Source: Acinetobacter bereziniae
GTDB taxonomy: Bacteria > Pseudomonadota > Gammaproteobacteria > Pseudomonadales > Moraxellaceae
Direction of reading: 5' to 3'
Assembly (NCBI GenBank): GCA_009912575.1
Contig: WNDP01000029.1
Span: forward strand, 1 to 36,810
DNA: 36,810 bases
Each line of letters opens with the position of its first letter. Positions within the stretch are counted from its first letter, which is position 1. Made by a program: the position numbers and the translations under genes. Positions 1,228 to 20,696 of the stretch are shown here, one piece after another. The notes under the pieces are model-generated. The model was not told the DNA's origin, ran no database searches, and saw only the letters and a program-made list of their open reading frames with translations.

Positions 1228-2043
1228 TTAAGGCTTTTCACCATTTGCTAAACGCTGTTCAATCGCATCCAATACCGCAGGTAAGTCAGCTACACTATCA
1301 ATTACATAATGTGCGCCTGAAGCATTCATTTTTATGTATGCTTTTTCTTTTAAATTTGCTTGTTCAGAAGCTGAAAGTGCAGACCACTCTTCGAAGCTTA
1401 ACCCTACTTCATTACCACTGACGGCCAATCCCACAGTCCAACAACCACCATTTAAACCTTCTTCGATACCGACCACTGTGTCATCTACTTTCACCACAGT
1501 TTTAATATCTAAGACATCAAGTTCGATTAAGTTTTTCCATAACATTTCAGGATATGGACGACCATATTTCACATCGCTGGCTGTAATAATACAGTCAGGC
1601 ACATAACCTTGCTCAGCAGCAGCATGCACCAATTGACCAATCATCATCGAAGCATAACCAGTATTACTGCCAATTTTTGCACCACGGGCACGAATATCAG
1701 CAAATGCCTCTAATGCCCCCGGAATCAATTTTGAGCAGTTTGGGATACTCTTCAATTGGTATGGAATAAAATCCTGATATAAACGATTAATATCCCCTAA
1801 AGTCACTTCTGCACCATGTGCCTGTTTCCACGCATCTGCAACACGTGGCATTTTCAAAACTGCCGCAATGTGATCGCGTTTTTCCAAACCCATTGGTGCT
1901 CGTGCTTCTTCAATCGAAATTTCAACATTATTATCTGCAAATAAAGCCATAAATGCCAAAATTGGGGCACGTGAACCAAAATCTACTGTTGTACCTGCCC
2001 AATCAAAAACGACGGCTTGTAATGCTGAAGTTGAAGTGTTCAT
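1228..2043 (-). CDS. phnX: Phosphonoacetaldehyde hydrolase (phosphonatase)
   Basis: This cytoplasmic HAD-superfamily enzyme cleaves the C-P bond of phosphonoacetaldehyde to give acetaldehyde and phosphate. The nucleophile motif DWAGTTVD is at residues 14-21 (Asp14). The cap motif MGLEKRDH at 51-58 holds Lys55, matching the Schiff-base lysine of characterised phosphonatases. The length of 271 residues is normal. It follows phnW on the same strand after a 193-bp gap that contains a palindromic repeat, and a strong terminator follows it. PhnW makes its substrate, so the pair forms the classical AEP degradation route. Control probably comes from the operator upstream of phnW. Confidence 0.95.
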   Translation of the reverse strand: MNTSTSALQAVVFDWAGTTVDFGSRAPILAFMALFADNNVEISIEEARAPMGLEKRDHIAAVLKMPRVADAWKQAHGAEVTLGDINRLYQDFIPYQLKSIPNCSKLIPGALEAFADIRARGAKIGSNTGYASMMIGQLVHAAAEQGYVPDCIITASDVKYGRPYPEMLWKNLIELDVLDIKTVVKVDDTVVGIEEGLNGGCWTVGLAVSGNEVGLSFEEWSALSASEQANLKEKAYIKMNASGAHYVIDSVADLPAVLDAIEQRLANGEKP

Positions 2044-2236: not shown

Positions 2237-3370
2237 TCAATTACGATAGTGCTCAATCGCTGTTAAAAGTCGTTCAATATCATCTAAATAAATCTCTCCG
2301 ATATTGCCGATACGGAAGCAATTTAAGTCGGTGACTTTGCCGGGATAGATTACAAACCCTGCTTGTTTCAGGTTTTCATACAAGGATTGAAAACTAAAAT
2401 CGGCTTCATTTGGATACAAAAATGTCGTGATTATTGGCGATTGTGGTGCGTCTTGATCTAAGACCATTCCAAAACCAAGCGCTTGCATACCTGTGGCTAA
2501 ACGTTGTTGATTATTGAAATAACGTTTATAACGTGCGGTTACTCCGCCTTCTTGTTCTAATTCTAAAAGCGCTTGATAAAAAGCACTCACCACATGAGTG
2601 GGCGAAGTAAAACGCCATTTACCATTATGCTGTTCCATGGTGTTCCATTGGTCGTATAGGTCTAAACTGACTGAACAAGCCAAGCCTTTGCACGCTTGTA
2701 ATTGCTCACGTTTTGCCAAAATAAAACCAAAACCTGGTACACCTTGGATGCATTTATTGGCACTTGAAATCAAGAAATCAATTTCAAGCTCTGCAATGTC
2801 CATTGGTACACCACCAAAAGAACTCATCGCATCGACAATCCATACTTTGTTTTTGGCTTTGACAATGCGTCCAATCGCTTGAATTGGATTTAATAATCCT
2901 GTGGTGGTTTCGCAATGCACACATGCAACATGAGTAATATTGTCATCTTGAAGTGCTTTTTCGATATCAGCCAGTTGAGGGATTTGCATTTCAGGGTAGC
3001 GTAATTCCACCACATCAATTTTCAAACATCGAGCCATTTGCACCATGCGTGCGCCATATGCTCCGTTATTGATAATTAAAATTTTGCCATCTTGTGGAAT
3101 CGCAGAACCTAATACTGCTTCTACAGAGAAACTCCCACTGCCTTGCATCAACACAGCACTATAATGTTCAGGTTTCGTCGTTGCCAATGCCACCAAACGA
3201 CTGCGGATTTCCTGAACCAATGCGTTATATTCTTTATCCCAAGTACACCAATCACGTTGCATCACACGGCGCACATTTTTCGAGGTAGACAATGGTCCTG
3301 GTGTCAACAGTAAGTATCTATTTTCAATATCGTTTTCAACTGTGTTTGCAAGTTCAATTTGTGCGTTCAT
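2237..3370 (-). CDS. phnW: 2-aminoethylphosphonate--pyruvate transaminase
   Basis: PhnW is a PLP-dependent class V aminotransferase that converts AEP and pyruvate to phosphonoacetaldehyde and L-alanine. The N-terminus shows the family hallmark [10 protein letters not shown] (21-30). The cofactor lysine is in [10 protein letters not shown] (201-210), so Lys206, and Asp180 in [11 protein letters not shown] should hold the pyridine nitrogen. The length of 377 is close to the usual 365-370. An AGG ribosome binding site precedes the ATG. The palindrome at 3409-3428 and a TATACT -10-like hexamer (3404-3399) lie just upstream, so phnW heads its own repressible unit with phnX downstream. Confidence 0.95.
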
Positions 3371-3408
3371 TTCGCCTAACCTTTGTTCAATTTCATAGAG
3401 TATAAATA

Positions 3409-3428
3409 AATCTGGTTTAAACCAGATT
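3409..3428. promoter_or_regulatory. Operator palindrome upstream of phnW
   Basis: This is the perfect 20-bp palindrome AATCTGGTTTAAACCAGATT. The same 20 bases occur once more in the window, at 8781-8800. The core GTTTAAAC fits the GT-N-TA-N-AC pattern described for operators of HutC-type GntR regulators, the class encoded at 8820-9554. It ends 39 bp upstream of the phnW start, next to a TATACT -10-like hexamer, where a bound repressor would block transcription. The stop codon of the upstream FAD gene (3427-3429) overlaps its end. Confidence 0.8.
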
Positions 3429-4581
3429 ACAAAATATAATTTTCTAACATTTCTTTCATAAATCCTGCACCTGTGGTCATGCCTTTGCCTGCAATCGCAC
3501 TGACAAGGAAAATATTGGTTTCAGCTTCCATCACACATGCCAATTCCGTGGGATGGGTCAGATAGTAACCATTCCAACGAGATTCAATTTCAGGTAGTTC
3601 TATGCCAATATTTTCTTTGCAATATTGCAAAATAAATTGGTTAATTTCTTCACGTTGATTAAATTGAGGTATGTCTTCAATCGGATAATATTCATGGCTA
3701 TCGCCCAAAATAATTTGTCCGAATTCATTTTGTTTAATCAGTATATGAATACCGTATTTTTCAACTAAACCGATTTGCGATTCATTGCGTAAATCTTGAT
3801 GACTAGGGCAAATCTCAAAAGCGGGATAACGAGAAATCGACAATCCAGAATAAATCGAAGCTTTGAGATTGACTTTTAGCGGTTTGGTTAATGCCATTTG
3901 TAAAGTACAACGCAATAAACCTTTTTGTTGTAAGAGCTCTGGATACAACAATTGTGTCTCTTCACCATGACAAATCATGACTTTATTTGCGGTAAATGTT
4001 TGACCTGATGCCAAGCGAATATACGCCATGCCTTGGTTAAATTGCGTCAGTACCACAGAAGCATTGCAATGAATTTGTACACCAAGTTTTTCGGCATATT
4101 TCAACAAGCGCAGTCCCACCAAATGTGGCTCAACTGAATAATCTTCATGAAACACCATACCGCCACGTAGCGCAGTTTCAGGGTTTAAATAAGCATATTG
4201 ATCAAACAGTTGCTGCTTAGATAATAGACTTACAGGAATCTGATAATCAGCTGCAACTTGAGCAAACTCGTTTAATACTTGCCATTCAAGTTCAGTATTC
4301 GCGAGATACAGGCCATTTCGCTGTTGAAATGAAATATCGTTTTGTACCTGAATCCGTTGATAAAATTCACGGGTTGCCAAAGCATATTCACGCCATTTCG
4401 CATCAGGACGGCTTAGCGTCGAAGTTCCAACCATGCCAAAGTTACGCCGTGTCGCACCTATAGGTTGTGCATATTTTTCAAAGACTTGTACCTTTAAGCC
4501 TTGTTCTGCCGCTTGGATCGCAGCTGATAATCCTAAAATGCCTGCACCAACAATAATTAAATCAAATTGCGCTGTATTCAT
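3427..4581 (-). CDS. FAD-dependent amine oxidoreductase of the AEP cluster
   Basis: This is a DAO-fold flavoprotein of 384 residues counted from ATG 4581. The N-terminal Rossmann motif [20 protein letters not shown] binds FAD. The sequence resembles the oxidoreductase group repeatedly found beside phnW and phnX (TIGR03364, from memory). Such enzymes oxidise C-N bonds. From memory, related ones in phosphonate clusters turn N-methylated AEP into phosphonoacetaldehyde, so a role in widening substrate range is plausible but unproven here. The reading frame extends 15 codons upstream to a TTG; the ATG is preferred because the FAD motif begins right after it and a GGTGG-like site precedes it. It follows the permease gene after about 110 bp. 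Confidence 0.8.
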
Positions 4582-4694
4582 TGTCTTTTCCACCTTGTCT
4601 CCCTTTTTTGGACGCAAAATCCCCAACGCCTAAAAGAAAGCATTCAATTCAAATGGTTTAGTTAATTAAAAAGATTGACTCAAAAATCAATTTA

Positions 4695-6410
4695 TTATGA
4701 ATGTGTTTGCTCACGCCAACGTTGTGCCGACGCCATCATTTTTCGAGTGAATAACCAATGCACCAACTTGACTGCACACGAGGTGAGTAGAATCAAAATA
4801 CTCATCGCCACAGCTGCCACGGTATCACCTGCATCATCCATATTCAGCACAGCCACCGATGCCAAATTGGTATCAGGTGAATAAAGGAAAATCGCAGCTG
4901 AAACAGTAGTCATGGCATTGACAAATAAATACACCAACACATCACACAGTGCAGGAAAGGTTAAAGGCAAATATACTTTGCGAAACATTGTCCAATGTGA
5001 AGATCCTAAACTTTGTGCAGCATGATCAAGTTGATTCGGGATCTGTTGAATCGCATGCGTTAAGGTCAAATGTGGCACAGTGTAATAATGAATAATGGTT
5101 GAAATCACCAACAGCGTCATCGTACCGTAAATGAAAGACACAGGATTTTGCAGTGCGTTAAAGAACAAGATATAAGCAATACCCAATACCAAGCCTGGCA
5201 CAGCCAAAGGCAATAACACCAAGACTTTTACATAGTTTTTAAGTAAAGGATGTGCTTTAAAACGGGTACTAAATAAGGCAATAATGAAAATTATTATCGT
5301 ACCGAAAACTGTACTGAACAGTGCCAATTTGATTGAGTTAAAATAACTTGACCAACCACCACCATCCACATATTCAAAACGATAATGATTTAAGGTCATA
5401 GACAAATCATAGGGCCAATAGCGAATGAATGATGCGAGAATCGCAGTCACAATAATCAGTAAAATACCGCCTGAAATCACCCCACAAAATACAGTTAATG
5501 CTTTTTCAATTCGAGGATTGGCACGCAAACGATAAGGCTGAATTTGAAAATTTTGATAGCGTTCCTGATGACGACTTTGGTATCGATCAAAAATGAATGC
5601 CAACACCGCAGGACAGAGCAACAAAATCGAAATGACGGCACCCATGTTCATATTTTGTTGACCAATGATCTGCTTATACACATCCAACGCCATCATATTG
5701 AATGAGCCACCAATCACTTTGGGAATCCCGAAATCGGTAATGACATAAGTAAATGCCACCAGACAGGCACTGACTAAACCATAACGAATCGCAGGAAAAG
5801 TCACTGCCCAATGGGTTTGTAGTGTGTTTTTTCCTAAAGCATGAGAAGCTTCAATCAAATGTTGATCAATATGGCGAAATGCACCCATCATCAACATGAC
5901 CATGGCAGGAAATAGCCAAAAGCAATAACTGATCAAAATGCCGAGTGGACCATAAATTTCCACCTCGCCCATCATGCCCTTAAAAACACCTTGCTGACCA
6001 AACAAATACACCAAAGCCAATGAAGGCAAAAGTGAAGGTGCAAGAATTGGTAAAAATGCCACGGTTTTAAAGAAAGCTTTGCCTCGAATATTGCAATTGA
6101 TCAATGCAAAAGCATACACACTTGCCAAGCTCACTGTAATCAACATAGCTGTAATAGCAATCCACATCGAATTAAAAATCGATGAGATTAAGGCAGGATT
6201 GGAAAAATAAGCTGTAAAGTTATCCAAACCGACAAATTGATGCTGTTCATTTAAAAATGCGCTTTGCATCAATAAGATTAAGGGTACAATCAAACTCAAG
6301 GTAAATAGAATTGCTGCGACAAACAACACCGCACTTGAACGCAATGAATAACGAAAACGATGTGCAGTTTGACTATTTAATAAAGCATCTGCGGCAGATT
6401 GATTTAACAT
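4695..6410 (-). CDS. AEP ABC transporter, fused double permease (PhnU2 type)
   Basis: This 571-residue inner-membrane protein holds two binding-protein-dependent permease domains in one chain. The first spans roughly residues 30-275 and the second roughly 310-560, each with about six hydrophobic segments. Both carry an EAA-type loop that contacts the ATPase: EASHALGKNTLQTHW in the first and HAAQSLGSSHWTMFRK in the second. Most importers of this class use two separate permeases; the fused form matches the putative AEP permease family TIGR03262. The start ATG overlaps the end of the ATPase gene by 7 nt, indicating translational coupling. The substrate is inferred from neighbouring phnW and phnX. 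Confidence 0.85.
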   Translation of the reverse strand: MLNQSAADALLNSQTAHRFRYSLRSSAVLFVAAILFTLSLIVPLILLMQSAFLNEQHQFVGLDNFTAYFSNPALISSIFNSMWIAITAMLITVSLASVYAFALINCNIRGKAFFKTVAFLPILAPSLLPSLALVYLFGQQGVFKGMMGEVEIYGPLGILISYCFWLFPAMVMLMMGAFRHIDQHLIEASHALGKNTLQTHWAVTFPAIRYGLVSACLVAFTYVITDFGIPKVIGGSFNMMALDVYKQIIGQQNMNMGAVISILLLCPAVLAFIFDRYQSRHQERYQNFQIQPYRLRANPRIEKALTVFCGVISGGILLIIVTAILASFIRYWPYDLSMTLNHYRFEYVDGGGWSSYFNSIKLALFSTVFGTIIIFIIALFSTRFKAHPLLKNYVKVLVLLPLAVPGLVLGIAYILFFNALQNPVSFIYGTMTLLVISTIIHYYTVPHLTLTHAIQQIPNQLDHAAQSLGSSHWTMFRKVYLPLTFPALCDVLVYLFVNAMTTVSAAIFLYSPDTNLASVAVLNMDDAGDTVAAVAMSILILLTSCAVKLVHWLFTRKMMASAQRWREQTHS

Positions 6411-7597
6411 CTCGCATGCCCTCGTGAATCAAACACATGTAAGTCACGAATCGGTACTTGCAGATACATTTCATCTTGTACCACCACTAAATGTTGATGA
6501 TCCACATCAACTTGCAACATATTGTCATCTGCCTGATCTTGGTTTTTCACAACGCAGAATAAACGACGTTTTGCACCTAAAAACTCTGTATTGACAATAT
6601 TTACAGCTAAATTTAAATATTCAGTAGAGGATTCATTTCCAGCAACTAATTTGACATTTTCAGGTCGAAAAGCAATTTCATAATGTTCATCTTGGACAAA
6701 GCTTAAATGTGGAAATTCAATAATGGATTGCTCATTCATTTTCAAACGATGCGTATCGACCGCCACCGTCTGTATAAAATTCATCGAACCAATAAACTCT
6801 GCTACAAAACGAGTTTGCGGTTTGTAATAAATATTATGTGGCGTATCGAGTTGTTCAATCACACCTTTATTCATCACCGCCACACGGTCAGAAATACTTA
6901 AAGCCTCTTCCTGATCATGCGTAACCATGATCGCAGGCAAATTTAATTGACATTGAATGGTACGAATTTTTTGGCGGAGATTTAAACGTACCAACGCATC
7001 CAAAGCTGACAATGGTTCATCCAACAATAAAATATCAGGATTGGGCGCAATCGCACGGGCTAAAGCCACACGCTGTTGCTGACCACCTGACAATTGATTG
7101 GGATATTTTTCTGAGATATTGGGCAATTCAACTAAGTTTAATAATTCATTGATACGTAATTGAATATCTTGCACTGACCAATGTTTTTTATGCAAACCAA
7201 ATGCAATATTTTCCGCCACAGTTAAGTTTGGAAATAGTGCATAGTTTTGGAAAACAATGCCGCATTTACGTTTTGCAGTATTAAAATGGGTAATATCAAT
7301 TTGTTGTTTAATCACTTTGCCATAATCAGGCTGTTCAAGCCCAGCAATGATGCGTAGCAATGTTGTTTTACCACAACCTGATGGACCTAAAAAGCTAACA
7401 AACTCACCTGCTTTCAAGTCAAGATTAATGTGTTCCAAGACACGGCTTGAACCAAAAGATTTTTGAATGTCCATCACTTCAAGCACTGTTTTTGATTCTG
7501 CCATTTTAAACGTTCTTAAAGTTGAGAGCAGATGCCCTGCCGAATTTGGCATGACCTGCCCTGTCCTACTATTTTGTAAATGCGATGGAATTTGCAT
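6404..7597 (-). CDS. AEP ABC transporter, ATP-binding protein (PhnT2 type)
   Basis: This cytoplasmic ATPase energises AEP import. Walker A is GPSGCGKTT, the signature is LSGGQQQRVALARA, Walker B is ILLLDEP, and the switch histidine is in VTHDQEEA. A C-terminal TOBE-like region covers about residues 290-390. The length of 397 includes about 30 residues ahead of the conserved LEVMDIQKSFGS strand. ATG 7597 has the best ribosome binding site (CTAGGTGCAGT before it); ATG 7552 and ATG 7504 would give more typical lengths, so the start is uncertain. It is co-oriented with the binding protein (71 bp gap) and overlaps the permease gene. Confidence 0.88.
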   Translation of the reverse strand: MQIPSHLQNSRTGQVMPNSAGHLLSTLRTFKMAESKTVLEVMDIQKSFGSSRVLEHINLDLKAGEFVSFLGPSGCGKTTLLRIIAGLEQPDYGKVIKQQIDITHFNTAKRKCGIVFQNYALFPNLTVAENIAFGLHKKHWSVQDIQLRINELLNLVELPNISEKYPNQLSGGQQQRVALARAIAPNPDILLLDEPLSALDALVRLNLRQKIRTIQCQLNLPAIMVTHDQEEALSISDRVAVMNKGVIEQLDTPHNIYYKPQTRFVAEFIGSMNFIQTVAVDTHRLKMNEQSIIEFPHLSFVQDEHYEIAFRPENVKLVAGNESSTEYLNLAVNIVNTEFLGAKRRLFCVVKNQDQADDNMLQVDVDHQHLVVVQDEMYLQVPIRDLHVFDSRGHARC

Positions 7598-7667
7598 ACT
7601 GCACCTAGTTTTTAATCGTTAATTTTGAATAACTGATTCTGAATAGCTTGTTGTGTACATGATTCAA

Positions 7668-8711
7668 TTACTTTTCAAATTTTGCTGACCATTGTTTTAG
7701 AATTGATTCACGCTGCTCAGCTGCCCAATAAAAATCATTCTTCACCAATTGCTGCGCAAGATTTTTTGGGAAATCTTGGTTTTTGCTGTGAACATTTTGA
7801 TGTGCCACCATTGAAAAGTTTTGTGCATAAGCTTCATTGGCAGCTTGGCTAACGCTCCAATCAATAAACTTTTCTGCACTGCTTAATTTTTTCGTACCTT
7901 TGACAATGGCTGAGGCTTCCATTTCCCAACCTAGCCCCTCTTTCGGATAAACAATTTCTAAAGGTGCGCCACGTGATTTCAGCTTAAAGCCCGGATAACC
8001 AAACGAAATTCCGATGACCGTTTCACCTTGTGCCGCCATCTTGCAAGGCTTCGAGCCTGAATGCACATATTGAGAAATATTTTTATCGAGTGCCTGCATA
8101 TATTGCCAAGCTTTTTTTTCACCAAAAATCTGTATCCATGCAGTCACATCCAAATAGCCTGTACCACTCGATGCAGGATTTGGCATCACGATTAAGCCTT
8201 TATAAATTGGTTTAGTCAGGTCTTGCCAGGTTTGCGGAATCGGTAATTTTTTCTTTTCCAATTCAACGGTATTGACACAAACAGCCGACTCCCAAGCAGT
8301 CATACCTGTCCATGTTGGAATGTCTTTTTGACTATAAAAATCGGTTTTAAGCTGTTCGACATGCTTCGGGCTATACGGTTGCAATAAGTCTTTTTTTTCC
8401 ATAACCAATAAACTGGTCAAAGCAAGTCCCATCACCACATCGGCTTGTGGATTCTTTTGTTCTGCTAATAATTTTGCGGTGATCACACCTGTCGAATCAC
8501 GCACCCATTTTACTTTTAATTCAGGATGCGCTTTACGTAATTCCCACTGATAACGCTTTAATTGATCTGCTTCAACTGCGGTATAGACCGTGATTTGTTC
8601 AGCATCATTCGAGGTTGAAGACGTGGTGCATGCCGTGCTGACACAAGCAAATAAAATACTCGTGCCCATAGCGAAGAGCTTTTTTTGCTGCTGTTTTAGA
8701 TACGGGCTCAT
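7668..8711 (-). CDS. AEP ABC transporter, substrate-binding lipoprotein (PhnS2 type)
   Basis: This 347-residue extracytoplasmic binding protein of the iron/AEP group begins with a lipoprotein-like signal. A basic start is followed by a hydrophobic stretch and Cys28 in VSTACTT; the lipobox is not ideal because Ser sits at -3. The mature part starts ITVYTAVEADQLKRYQ and contains DSTGVITAKLLAEQ and NPASSGTGYLD, typical of this type 2 periplasmic-binding fold. It is the first gene of the transport operon, with AGGAA before the ATG and the operator palindrome about 70 bp upstream. Binding of AEP is inferred from the cluster. Confidence 0.85.
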   Translation of the reverse strand: MSPYLKQQQKKLFAMGTSILFACVSTACTTSSTSNDAEQITVYTAVEADQLKRYQWELRKAHPELKVKWVRDSTGVITAKLLAEQKNPQADVVMGLALTSLLVMEKKDLLQPYSPKHVEQLKTDFYSQKDIPTWTGMTAWESAVCVNTVELEKKKLPIPQTWQDLTKPIYKGLIVMPNPASSGTGYLDVTAWIQIFGEKKAWQYMQALDKNISQYVHSGSKPCKMAAQGETVIGISFGYPGFKLKSRGAPLEIVYPKEGLGWEMEASAIVKGTKKLSSAEKFIDWSVSQAANEAYAQNFSMVAHQNVHSKNQDFPKNLAQQLVKNDFYWAAEQRESILKQWSAKFEK

Positions 8712-8775
8712 TATGACATTCCTAACGAATGCTGCTTCTTGATAGCCTGTATTTCAACAAAAGTTTATGACAATT

Positions 8776-8805
8776 TAATTAATCTGGTTTAAACCAGATT
8801 AATTA
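8776..8805. promoter_or_regulatory. Operator palindrome upstream of the AEP transporter operon
   Basis: The same 20-bp core as at 3409-3428 (here 8781-8800) is extended by matching flanks to a 30-bp perfect palindrome. It lies in the gap between the GntR gene and the binding-protein gene, about 65 bp before the latter's start. The core GTTTAAAC matches the HutC-type GntR half-site rule. Binding by the adjacent regulator is inferred. Confidence 0.85.
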
Positions 8806-8819
8806 TTTTTAATTCTTTA

Positions 8820-9554
8820 TCATGATGCTTCAAAATGCAAATCGAGTACATCATGTAACCAATATTCTTGGTCAACATCGGTAATTACTCCATTTTGATC
8901 GCAGTTGGTACGGCAAATATATAAACCCATACTACCAACATTGACATGCAAAGCTTTGGCTTGTTGTTCTGACAATACTGTTGGATAGAGATTAATATGC
9001 GCTCGAGTCAATTGCCGTTGATAGTACTCTGCCATCAAAGTTGTAATAGAACCTTCTAATTGTTGTTCTAAAAATTGAGGAAATAAACTTGCATTGATAC
9101 GTAAATGTTCAACTACCGCAGGACGACCATTGATACTACGACGTCGCCACATCGAATAAATATCATCACCCACCGAAATTTTTAAATGTGCTGCATCCCA
9201 GGAGGTCGCTTGAACCAATTCCGCAGAAATCAATTCTGTACTTGGTACACCCCCTTGCTCAGTCACATATTGGTTAAAACTTTTGGTCGATTGTGGACAG
9301 TAAATAATTCGTGGCGCACGAACAAACCAACCACGGCGATCTAAGCGATAAATGAGACCATCCATTTCCAAAGCCAATAATGCCTCTCGAACTGCGACAC
9401 GTGTGGTATCAAATTGTTCCATTAACACACGCTCTGAAGCGAGTTTAGTATTGGCGCTCCATTGCCCTGATTCGATCTCGTGGGCAATAACATCTCGAAT
9501 GGCAATATATTTGGGAATACGTGGAGAAGTCATTTCTTGAACAGGCATACACAT
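8820..9554 (-). CDS. GntR-family (HutC type) regulator of AEP use, PhnR-like
   Basis: This 244-residue regulator has an N-terminal winged helix (about residues 14-82; LASERVLMEQFDTTRVAVRE is the helix-turn-helix) and a C-terminal UTRA-type ligand domain (SMWRRRSINGRPAVVEHLRI). That layout defines the HutC subfamily, whose operators follow GT-N-TA-N-AC. Two perfect matching palindromes lie upstream of the two downstream AEP units. It likely represses them and lets go when AEP or a breakdown product binds; activation is also possible. ATG at 9554, 9548 and 9533 are all possible starts, with no clear ribosome binding site. No operator copy was seen before its own gene. Confidence 0.88.
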   Translation of the reverse strand: MCMPVQEMTSPRIPKYIAIRDVIAHEIESGQWSANTKLASERVLMEQFDTTRVAVREALLALEMDGLIYRLDRRGWFVRAPRIIYCPQSTKSFNQYVTEQGGVPSTELISAELVQATSWDAAHLKISVGDDIYSMWRRRSINGRPAVVEHLRINASLFPQFLEQQLEGSITTLMAEYYQRQLTRAHINLYPTVLSEQQAKALHVNVGSMGLYICRTNCDQNGVITDVDQEYWLHDVLDLHFEAS

Positions 9555-19634: not shown

Positions 19635-20696
19635 GTCTTAGACGCTGCTGCTGTTTGATCGACATAGGTTTTATTAGTAATGTGATTACCATCTGTAATC
19701 GGTCCTGTGTAATAGCTACCACTGTTGTTTACAGTAAAGCTATTGCCTAACTGTGTAGTCCCTGCAACAGTTAAATCTGTCGTATTAACTGTGTTAAAAG
19801 TTACATCTGCTGCTGTACCAACTGTAATACTGCCATCTGCATTGGCAGATAATTCAACATTATCACCAGTAACAAAGTTAACTTTGTTATCGTTCTGGTC
19901 TACAGTCTTAATATCTACGCCATCAATCTGTGTCACGACACTTTGTAATGCAGTATCTGCTTTGACTAAGCTGTCTTTAGTACCTTGGCTTAAGTCAATC
20001 GCATAATCAGTGATGTTATTGGCATCTTTCGCACCAGCAACGACATTAACCCCACTCGATCCAGCACTTACACTCGCTCCATCTGCATTCACGGTATAAA
20101 TCGTTTGACCATTCGCACCAGTTGTAGAAGTTACATTCGCTACATTCGTTCCACCCGCAACTTCAGTCTTAGACGCTGCTGCTGTTTGATCGACATAAGT
20201 TTTATTGGTAATGTGATTACCATCTGTAATCGGTCCTGTGTAATAGCTACCACTGTTGTTTACAGTAAAGTTATTGCCTAACTGCGTAGTCCCTGCAACA
20301 GTTAGATCTGTCGTATTAACTGTGTTAAAGGTTACATCTGCTGCTGTACCAACTGTAATACTGCCATCTGCATTGGCAGATAATTCAACATTATCACCAG
20401 TAACAAAGTTAACTTTGTTATCGTTCTGGTCTACAGTCTTAACATCCACGCCATCAATCTGTGTCACGACACTTTGTAATGCAGTGTCTGCTTTGACTAA
20501 GCTGTCTTTAGTACCTTGGCTTAAGTCAATCGCATAGTCAGTGATGTTATTGGCATCTTTCGTACCAGCAACAACATTAACGCCACTCGATCCAGCACTT
20601 ACACTCGCTCCATCTGCATTCACTGTATAAATCGTTTGACCATTCGCACCAGTTGTAGAAGTTACATTCGCTACATTAGTTCCACCCGCAACTTCA
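19635..20696 (-). repeat. 531-bp in-frame tandem duplication in the adhesin stalk
   Basis: Two direct copies, 19635-20165 and 20166-20696, have a period of exactly 531 bp (177 codons) and differ at only a few positions. Each encodes the block from KTEVAGGTNVANVTST to NHITNKTYVDQTAAAS. Because the period is a multiple of three, copy-number change would lengthen or shorten the fibre without breaking the frame. The left edge of each copy begins at GTCTTAGACGCT on the + strand, and a third partial start of that motif lies at 20697. Confidence 0.95.

Follow-up and report, generated by a model that had tools for sequence, protein, structure and literature searches.

Palindromes ahead of two units of an Acinetobacter phosphonate block are very probably operators of the adjoining GntR/HutC-type regulator PhnR

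How are the genes of a phosphonate block in Acinetobacter controlled, and what is the role of the two identical palindromes that stand in it? The block is located in a stretch of 36,810 nucleotides (nt) from Acinetobacter bereziniae (contig WNDP01000029.1 of assembly GCA_009912575.1; "the window" refers to this whole stretch). The genome is that of an Acinetobacter near A. guillouiae (PhnR 98% identical). The genes of the block are all encoded on the minus strand and follow one another, operators included, as phnR, operator S, phnS, phnT, phnU, a flavin adenine dinucleotide (FAD) oxidoreductase gene (pbfD), operator W, phnW and phnX. The palindromes are very probably the operators of the adjoining GntR/HutC-type PhnR, which would control phnSTU-pbfD for uptake and N-methyl-2-aminoethylphosphonate (N-methyl-AEP) oxidase, and phnWX for breakdown of 2-aminoethylphosphonate (AEP). 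This reading draws directly on observed sequence, conservation, placement and co-occurrence, and on the family and predicted fold of the protein. Its central features are as follows.

8776 to 8805, no strand: operator S, a 30-base-pair (bp) perfect palindrome before phnS with a conserved 20-bp core at 8781-8800 (window search; conservation)
3409 to 3428, no strand: operator W, a 20-bp perfect palindrome before phnW, overlapping the pbfD stop codon (window search; conservation)
8820 to 9554, minus strand: phnR, GntR/HutC-type regulator of 244 residues (PF00392 and UTRA; TIGR03337 at 230.2 bits, under the cut-off of 296.75; fold like NagR, DasR and PhnF)

The 20-mer AATCTGGTTTAAACCAGATT is found exactly at 3409-3428 and 8781-8800. 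The first-pass annotation had reported these two copies and no other in the window. Our search confirmed this and found no third place in the window at up to 3 mismatches. By chance 0.01 matches are expected per shuffled window, and two matches occurred in 0 of 100 shuffles. It was also correct that the transporter copy is extended to a 30-bp perfect palindrome at 8776-8805, and that the copy at 3409-3428 is not extended. At its right end the latter shares bases 3427-3428 with the stop codon of the FAD oxidoreductase gene (open reading frame (ORF) 3427-4626, minus strand). In the draft genome of 5.16 Mb these two are the only exact copies; at the 3-mismatch level there are three more places, compared to one for the reversed control.

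The palindrome tracks PhnR across the genus. Among 150 sampled Acinetobacter genomes, PhnR (called at E ≤ 1e-40) is present in 31 and the 20-mer at up to 2 mismatches in 37. At up to 1 mismatch the 20-mer is found in 30 of the 31 genomes with PhnR and in none of the 119 without it (Fisher p 1e-30, uncorrected for kinship). The sole exception, G145, has a 2-mismatch copy. Left out of the counts were a single 2-mismatch place in six genomes without PhnR and one stray in each of four genomes with it. The phnW gene (E ≤ 1e-100) is present in 30 of the 150 genomes, which are the PhnR-positive set minus G145.

The operators head transcription units. An operator (up to 4 mismatches) stands ahead of the first transport gene in all 31 PhnR-positive genomes; it is exact in 28 and inexact in G107 (1 mismatch), G145 (2) and G141 (4). 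One 4-mismatch place before phnR in G123 was left out of the counts. An operator precedes phnW in 27 of the 30 PhnR-positive genomes that have this gene. It is absent in G001, G090 and G107, where phnW is located 20, 34 and 20 nt behind pbfD (distances here are between tblastn bounds) and is probably not a separate unit. Two genomes with an inverted phnS, G048 and G105, have a third operator ahead of that gene, followed by a similar block. Operator S starts 89 nt before phnS in the window genome (G000), G064, G087 and G093 alike, at 23, 664, 303 and 415 nt, respectively, past the phnR coding match. The claim of the first-pass annotation that each copy stands just ahead of a transcription unit of the AEP block is thus borne out by placement in the 31 genomes and by the tracking of PhnR; the 20-mer stands by phnW and the AEP transporter genes of related genomes and is absent (up to 1 mismatch) from the 119 genomes without PhnR.

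A wider genus search found PhnR in 36 of 176 genomes, adding five. Operator S is exact in all five, and operator W is present in four and absent where phnW abuts pbfD. Two of the five coincide with named records also examined here (G908 is L049, and G923 is the plasmid record L210). Several loci of the genus show further features. Three related genomes have longer stretches, of unequal length and with no clear gene, separating phnR from operator S (L134 3277-3940, L133 3136-3438, L135 3180-3594). In a lake Acinetobacter (G923), the whole phnR-phnSTU-pbfD-phnWX block with both operators is carried on a 135-kb plasmid, p12SAAs474 (NZ_CP127913.1, L210, 9480-17623). G145 has a diverged PhnR locus with an operator before phnS (L089, 5390-14587). 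No match to phnW, phnX or pbfD was found within the 19 kb of L089, which also contains a class-III aminotransferase-like ORF, an EamA-like transporter and a porin-like ORF (names by eye).

Operators of this type extend beyond Acinetobacter and probably predate the genus. A class-wide search gave PhnR in 2 of 369 genomes, one of them the source genome, and the order was therefore searched instead. TIGR03337 matches at E ≤ 1e-45 are present in 50 of its 390 genomes, and 38 loci around such matches, from 35 genomes and a part of all matches, were sampled. Counted at any position of a locus with up to 1 mismatch, the motif CTGGTNTANACCAG is present in all 19 loci that have phnS or phnW, compared to 5 of the 19 that have neither (p 2e-6); its reversed control is found in 2 of 19 and 0 of 19, respectively. 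Half of the sampled matches (19 of 38; loci L156-L188) are located away from phnS and phnW, which suggests that the PhnR model TIGR03337 probably covers regulators of other pathways too. In addition, 10 of 37 matching named records of a plasmid collection were examined: eight with annotated phn genes, one unannotated and one without AEP genes. L217 was left out of the counts for a misread frame. A site at up to 1 mismatch is close to a block gene in seven of the eight, two Klebsiella records sharing the same sites. Sites are found at phnW and/or phnS of Klebsiella, Salmonella, Plesiomonas and Vibrio parahaemolyticus. In a Novosphingobium record the site is at a DUF5690 gene, ahead of a FAD enzyme gene and phnX.

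The protein is of a type expected to bind such palindromes. Its N-terminal GntR winged helix (PF00392, 50.7 bits) and C-terminal UTRA domain (PF07702, 107.5 bits) both score over their cut-offs, and by these domains it belongs to the HutC subfamily of the GntR family. This confirms the HutC-type GntR gene that had been placed at 8820-9554, adjoining one copy. An AlphaFold model from a 14-sequence alignment (mean predicted local distance difference test score 85, predicted template modelling score 0.68) matches NagR, DasR and PhnF in Foldseek with E 1e-18 or better. AEP transport and phosphonatase genes, the kind that TIGR03337 members accompany and control, adjoin phnR; their control by PhnR is predicted. 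In NagR, Arg38 and Arg48 are described as reading G-5 and G-4 (PMC4333415). PhnR Arg42 and Arg52 align with them, and both guanines occur in each half-site. PhnR Arg137 and Arg139 align with the phosphate-binding pair described for NagR, Arg133 and Arg135 (PMC4918961), and are kept in 69 of 69 aligned PhnR-family proteins.

Conservation around the operators points to where the promoters may be located.

3399 to 3404, minus strand: TATACT, likely the -10 hexamer for phnW, 5-10 nt downstream of operator W (from conservation)
8766 to 8773, minus strand: motif (T/C)TGTCA(T/C)A, located 8-15 nt downstream of operator S, -35-like or half a Pho box (from conservation)

In an alignment of 29 distinct rows of 31 for S and 27 rows for W, column identity is 0.99 (S) and 0.97 (W) in the operator, 0.54 and 0.65 in the left flanks, and 0.79 and 0.74 in the 20 bases to the right. 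At +5 to +10 past W, positions 1, 2 and 6 of the hexamer are T, A and T, each in at least 95% of the 27 promoters. With this -10-like box directly downstream, operator W would cover the -35/spacer region. The block (C/T)TGTCA(T/C)A is found 8-9 nt past S in 19 named Acinetobacter loci and the window, and also past the third operators; its columns are 75-95% conserved in the 31-genome alignment. Pho-box-like repeats precede a PhoB-like gene (L193, by eye) and a PstS-like gene (L252; TIGR02136 at 159 bits, under its cut-off), and the block looks like a single half of them. No second half at the 11-bp period was found beside the S block. A link of this block to phosphate starvation control is possible.

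We propose the following mechanism, in which the dimer, its DNA contacts, binding, repression, the inducer and the promoter positions are all predicted. Without inducer, one PhnR dimer would occupy each palindrome. Each subunit would recognize G-5 and G-4 of its CTGGT half-site through Arg42 and Arg52, and the arginine-rich wing R73-R74-G75-W76 would reach the AAT flank. Since Arg73 is constant in the 69 aligned proteins and the AAT flank of the operator is conserved, we infer that the wing is placed in the A+T-rich minor groove. At phnW, with the operator over the -35/spacer region and just upstream of the TATA(C/T)T-like -10 box, bound PhnR would block RNA polymerase. At phnS, with the operator just upstream of the conserved promoter-like block, it would most likely repress too. 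A phosphonate inducer (AEP, N-methyl-AEP or phosphonoacetaldehyde) would bind the UTRA domain through Arg137 and Arg139 and turn both units on.

Several observations weigh against this reading. The sampled genomes are related, and their counts are not independent events. The transporter operator of G141 is degenerate, and in Vibrio sp. HDW18 no site at up to 1 mismatch is found near the phn genes. The window protein, at 230.2 bits, does not reach the TIGR03337 cut-off of 296.75, and is therefore PhnR by context and PhnR-like by family score; matches over this cut-off are present in only 6 of the 390 genomes of the order. The wing glycine, Gly69 in NagR, described as typical of the subfamily (PMC4918961) and not a defining trait, has no equivalent, the aligned residue being Arg73 in 69 of 69 PhnR-family proteins. 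The operator center TTAA departs from the GTMTAKAC consensus, also typical and not defining, at both M/K positions. A sigma-70 scan placed no promoter at either operator, and its total of 25 is not above shuffles (30.3). A terminator scan of the window lists both palindromes as terminator-like (12 hits, 6.6 in shuffles). Repression at S, where the promoter position is tentative, is less sure than at W.

PhnR may instead bind the palindromes and activate at one promoter, probably that of phnS. Operator S, the more strictly kept of the two, ends 7-8 nt ahead of the (C/T)TGTCA block, upstream of it and not over it, and W stands directly before the -10-like box. Yet the same operator serves both geometries, and the characterized HutC-type relatives NagR and DasR are described as repressors, so activation is unlikely.

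The first-pass annotation had taken the extension of the transporter copy as a sign of different affinities and ordered induction of uptake and degradation. The exact core is indeed more frequent at S (28 of 31) than at W (11 of 27, where most departures are a C at the outermost base). Such stricter conservation would fit unequal constraint, and it is silent on affinity or induction order. However, the full 5-bp extension on each side is found in only 7 of 31 S operators and in none of the 27 W operators, and 18 of 31 S operators have no extension at all. The bases to the right of S belong to the promoter-like block and are conserved even where the left flank offers no palindromic match. We therefore reject the 30-bp extension as a conserved device. 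The affinity argument loses its conserved basis with it, and ordered induction by unequal affinity is quite improbable.

A role for the palindromes as intergenic terminators or RNA hairpins is still less probable. The terminator scan lists 8776-8805 on the plus strand with T5 and 3409-3428 on the minus strand with the tail TATTTATACT. A terminator-like hairpin with a T7 tail and the same 12-bp core, TGGTTTAAACCA, is also found elsewhere in the genome (L226 site 1501, G000:C55:3205), either a chance match or a palindrome and a terminator coinciding. But at S the T tract is on the untranscribed strand, with none on the transcribed strand, and the tail accepted at W contains the -10-like box kept in relatives. 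A third copy stands ahead of the inverted phnS in two genomes, S keeps a fixed distance to phnS while that to phnR varies, and the window has no Rfam match at the gathering threshold. Terminators and RNA elements are rejected on the strand of the S tract, the third operator, the phnS spacing and Rfam. It is equally improbable that another regulator such as HutC reads the palindrome: HutC-type proteins share the GT-N4-AC rule, but copies at up to 1 mismatch track PhnR, and the only other UTRA regulator found in the genome has Ser-Glu-Ser, not Ser-Glu-Arg, at the G-5-reading position (by eye) and adjoins a urocanase-like ORF (named by eye).

With PhnR preferred as the reader of both palindromes, the center of the operator deserves attention. 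The HutC consensus is given as NyGTMTAKACNy, with a GT-N4-AC spacing rule (PMC4494728). The first-pass annotation had stated that the core fits this operator rule. The core GT-TTAA-AC, which PhnR is predicted to bind, has the palindromic GT-N4-AC spacing; the fit fails at both M/K positions, and this departure is usual in Acinetobacter. The 39 sites in the AEP loci of the order give 78 half-sites, of which 70 have A or C at base -2 (counts: A 49, C 21, T 5, G 3), in keeping with GTMTAKAC. In 30 Acinetobacter genomes (G145 excluded) this base is T in 116 of 118 half-sites at 59 sites; these operators have T/A at -2/+2 in place of (A/C)TA(G/T). The Acinetobacter sites were gathered at up to 4 mismatches, so a two-base change of the center alone would show.

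Residue 54 of PhnR separates the same two groups. It is Ala in 30 of 30 Acinetobacter proteins and Thr in 38 of 38 order-level relatives, aligned with NagR Thr50. Five further Acinetobacter genomes have Ala54, and eight readable named relatives outside the genus have Thr54 by eye. The residue is third in the recognition helix, which starts at residue 52 in the AlphaFold model. G145 has Met54 and the operator GTATAAAC, with one half old and one half new (center ATAA). A tree places G145 as the sister of the remaining Acinetobacter rows, with 100/99 at both nodes and long-branch warnings elsewhere. A tentative account, slightly less likely than not, is that PhnR and its operators changed specificity together in Acinetobacter, stepwise from the ancestral Thr54 with (A/C)TA(T/G), through Met54 with ATAA on the sister branch, to Ala54 with TTAA. 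Co-evolution of the site and residue 54 is suggested and not proven, as this is one change in one clade. Within the first 90 residues, positions 61, 79 and 88 likewise distinguish Acinetobacter from the other proteins, and Ala54 is thus the most plausible, not the sole, candidate. The aligned NagR Thr50 is described as a backbone, not a base, contact (PMC4918961), so an effect of Thr54, if real, would probably be on indirect read-out. Loss of Thr54 may shift PhnR to indirect read-out of the TTTAAA center, insulating the regulon from other HutC-type operators.

Among known systems, NagR (YvoA) of Bacillus subtilis and DasR of Streptomyces, both repressors with dre operators, have the same GntR and UTRA domains and fold. 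NagR also shares the GGT half-site, the arginine pair reading G-5 and G-4 and the phosphate-binding pair; its crystallized palindrome is given as GTGGTCTAGACCAC (PMC4333415). Unlike PhnR, these regulators control an amino-sugar regulon, with the center CTAG, G at -7 and the wing Gly69 in place of Arg73. The PhnR operator is longer by the AAT flank and perfect here, whereas native Bacillus dre sites are described as imperfect palindromes. In the phnRSTUV-phnWX loci of Salmonella and Klebsiella, a PhnR relative (TIGR03337) adjoins AEP genes, and CTGGTNTANACCAG-type sites (0-1 mismatch) are located at phnW and phnS. Identity to that PhnR is about 37%, the window protein is under the family cut-off, and the operators there have other centers (CTAT, CTAC, and ATAG with one base off) together with Thr54. 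PhnF of Mycobacterium smegmatis (fold match 3f8m, 20% identity) is similarly described as a GntR-family repressor of a phosphorus-compound transporter with two binding sequences, but it controls phosphate transport by phnDCE from a divergent gene (PMC7866108). AepR of Pseudomonas putida BIRD-1 is described as controlling phnWX in a substrate-dependent manner, and the same has been proposed for AEP transporters (PMC9311074), but it is LysR-type, an unrelated family.

The remaining genes of the block are listed below.

7668 to 8711, minus strand: phnS, AEP ATP-binding cassette (ABC) transporter binding protein (TIGR03261 at 476.4 bits, cut-off 392.75)
6404 to 7510, minus strand: phnT, ABC ATPase (TIGR03265 at 419.7 bits, under the cut-off of 457.7)
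4695 to 6410, minus strand: phnU, ABC permease (TIGR03262 at 649.3 bits, cut-off 593.25)
3427 to 4581, minus strand: pbfD-like FAD oxidoreductase, N-methyl-AEP oxidase by family (TIGR03364 at 298.9 bits, cut-off 285.1)
2237 to 3370, minus strand: phnW, AEP-pyruvate transaminase (TIGR02326 at 576.5 bits, cut-off 400.8)
1228 to 2043, minus strand: phnX, phosphonoacetaldehyde hydrolase (TIGR01422 at 343.8 bits, cut-off 220)

The phnT start was picked inside ORF 6404-7597; relatives align from that start. Since the FAD enzyme falls in TIGR03364, and PbfD1 of A. baumannii, from such a cluster, is described as oxidizing N-methyl-AEP (PMC10590968), the block would serve AEP and probably also N-methyl-AEP. 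In A. seifertii (L046, 15493-16278) and G100 (L094, 7288-8073) pbfD is matched in two pieces about 785 bases apart.

Elsewhere in the genome, TGGTNTANACCA is found at 16 places, compared to 9 for its reversed control. Six have the TTTAAA center: the two operators, three inside ORFs and the intergenic L226. Ten have other centers; of five inspected, four are inside ORFs and L232 is between convergent ORFs. One of the three TTTAAA places inside ORFs, L235 (site 2234, G000:C325), has TGGTTTAAACCA in the 3'-terminal part of its ORF, with the next ORF starting about 15 nt further on and with flanks that differ from the operator 20-mer; it is a possible further PhnR target. The window also contains another pair of identical 20-bp perfect palindromes, TAACAAAGTTAACTTTGTTA, at 19870-19889 and 20401-20420 within a repetitive adhesin-like ORF.

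No PhnR binding site or operator is described in the open-license papers searched; supplements (e.g. that of PMC4494728) and regulon databases, which may hold the motif, were outside the search. A 2023 review (PMC10574752) treats LysR-type regulators for these operons in the sections consulted, and PMC5351497, on Salmonella, discusses PhnR, with no operator described in the part drawn on here. The arrangement is of a familiar kind, with a lineage-specific variant of regulator and operator in Acinetobacter. The palindromes would provide an explicit operator for a GntR-type PhnR regulon, and the motif would allow AEP and N-methyl-AEP regulons to be predicted across Gammaproteobacteria. If the joint change of Thr54 and the operator center is true, it would illustrate compactly how a regulator and its operators can shift in step, and an intermediate of the change would still exist.

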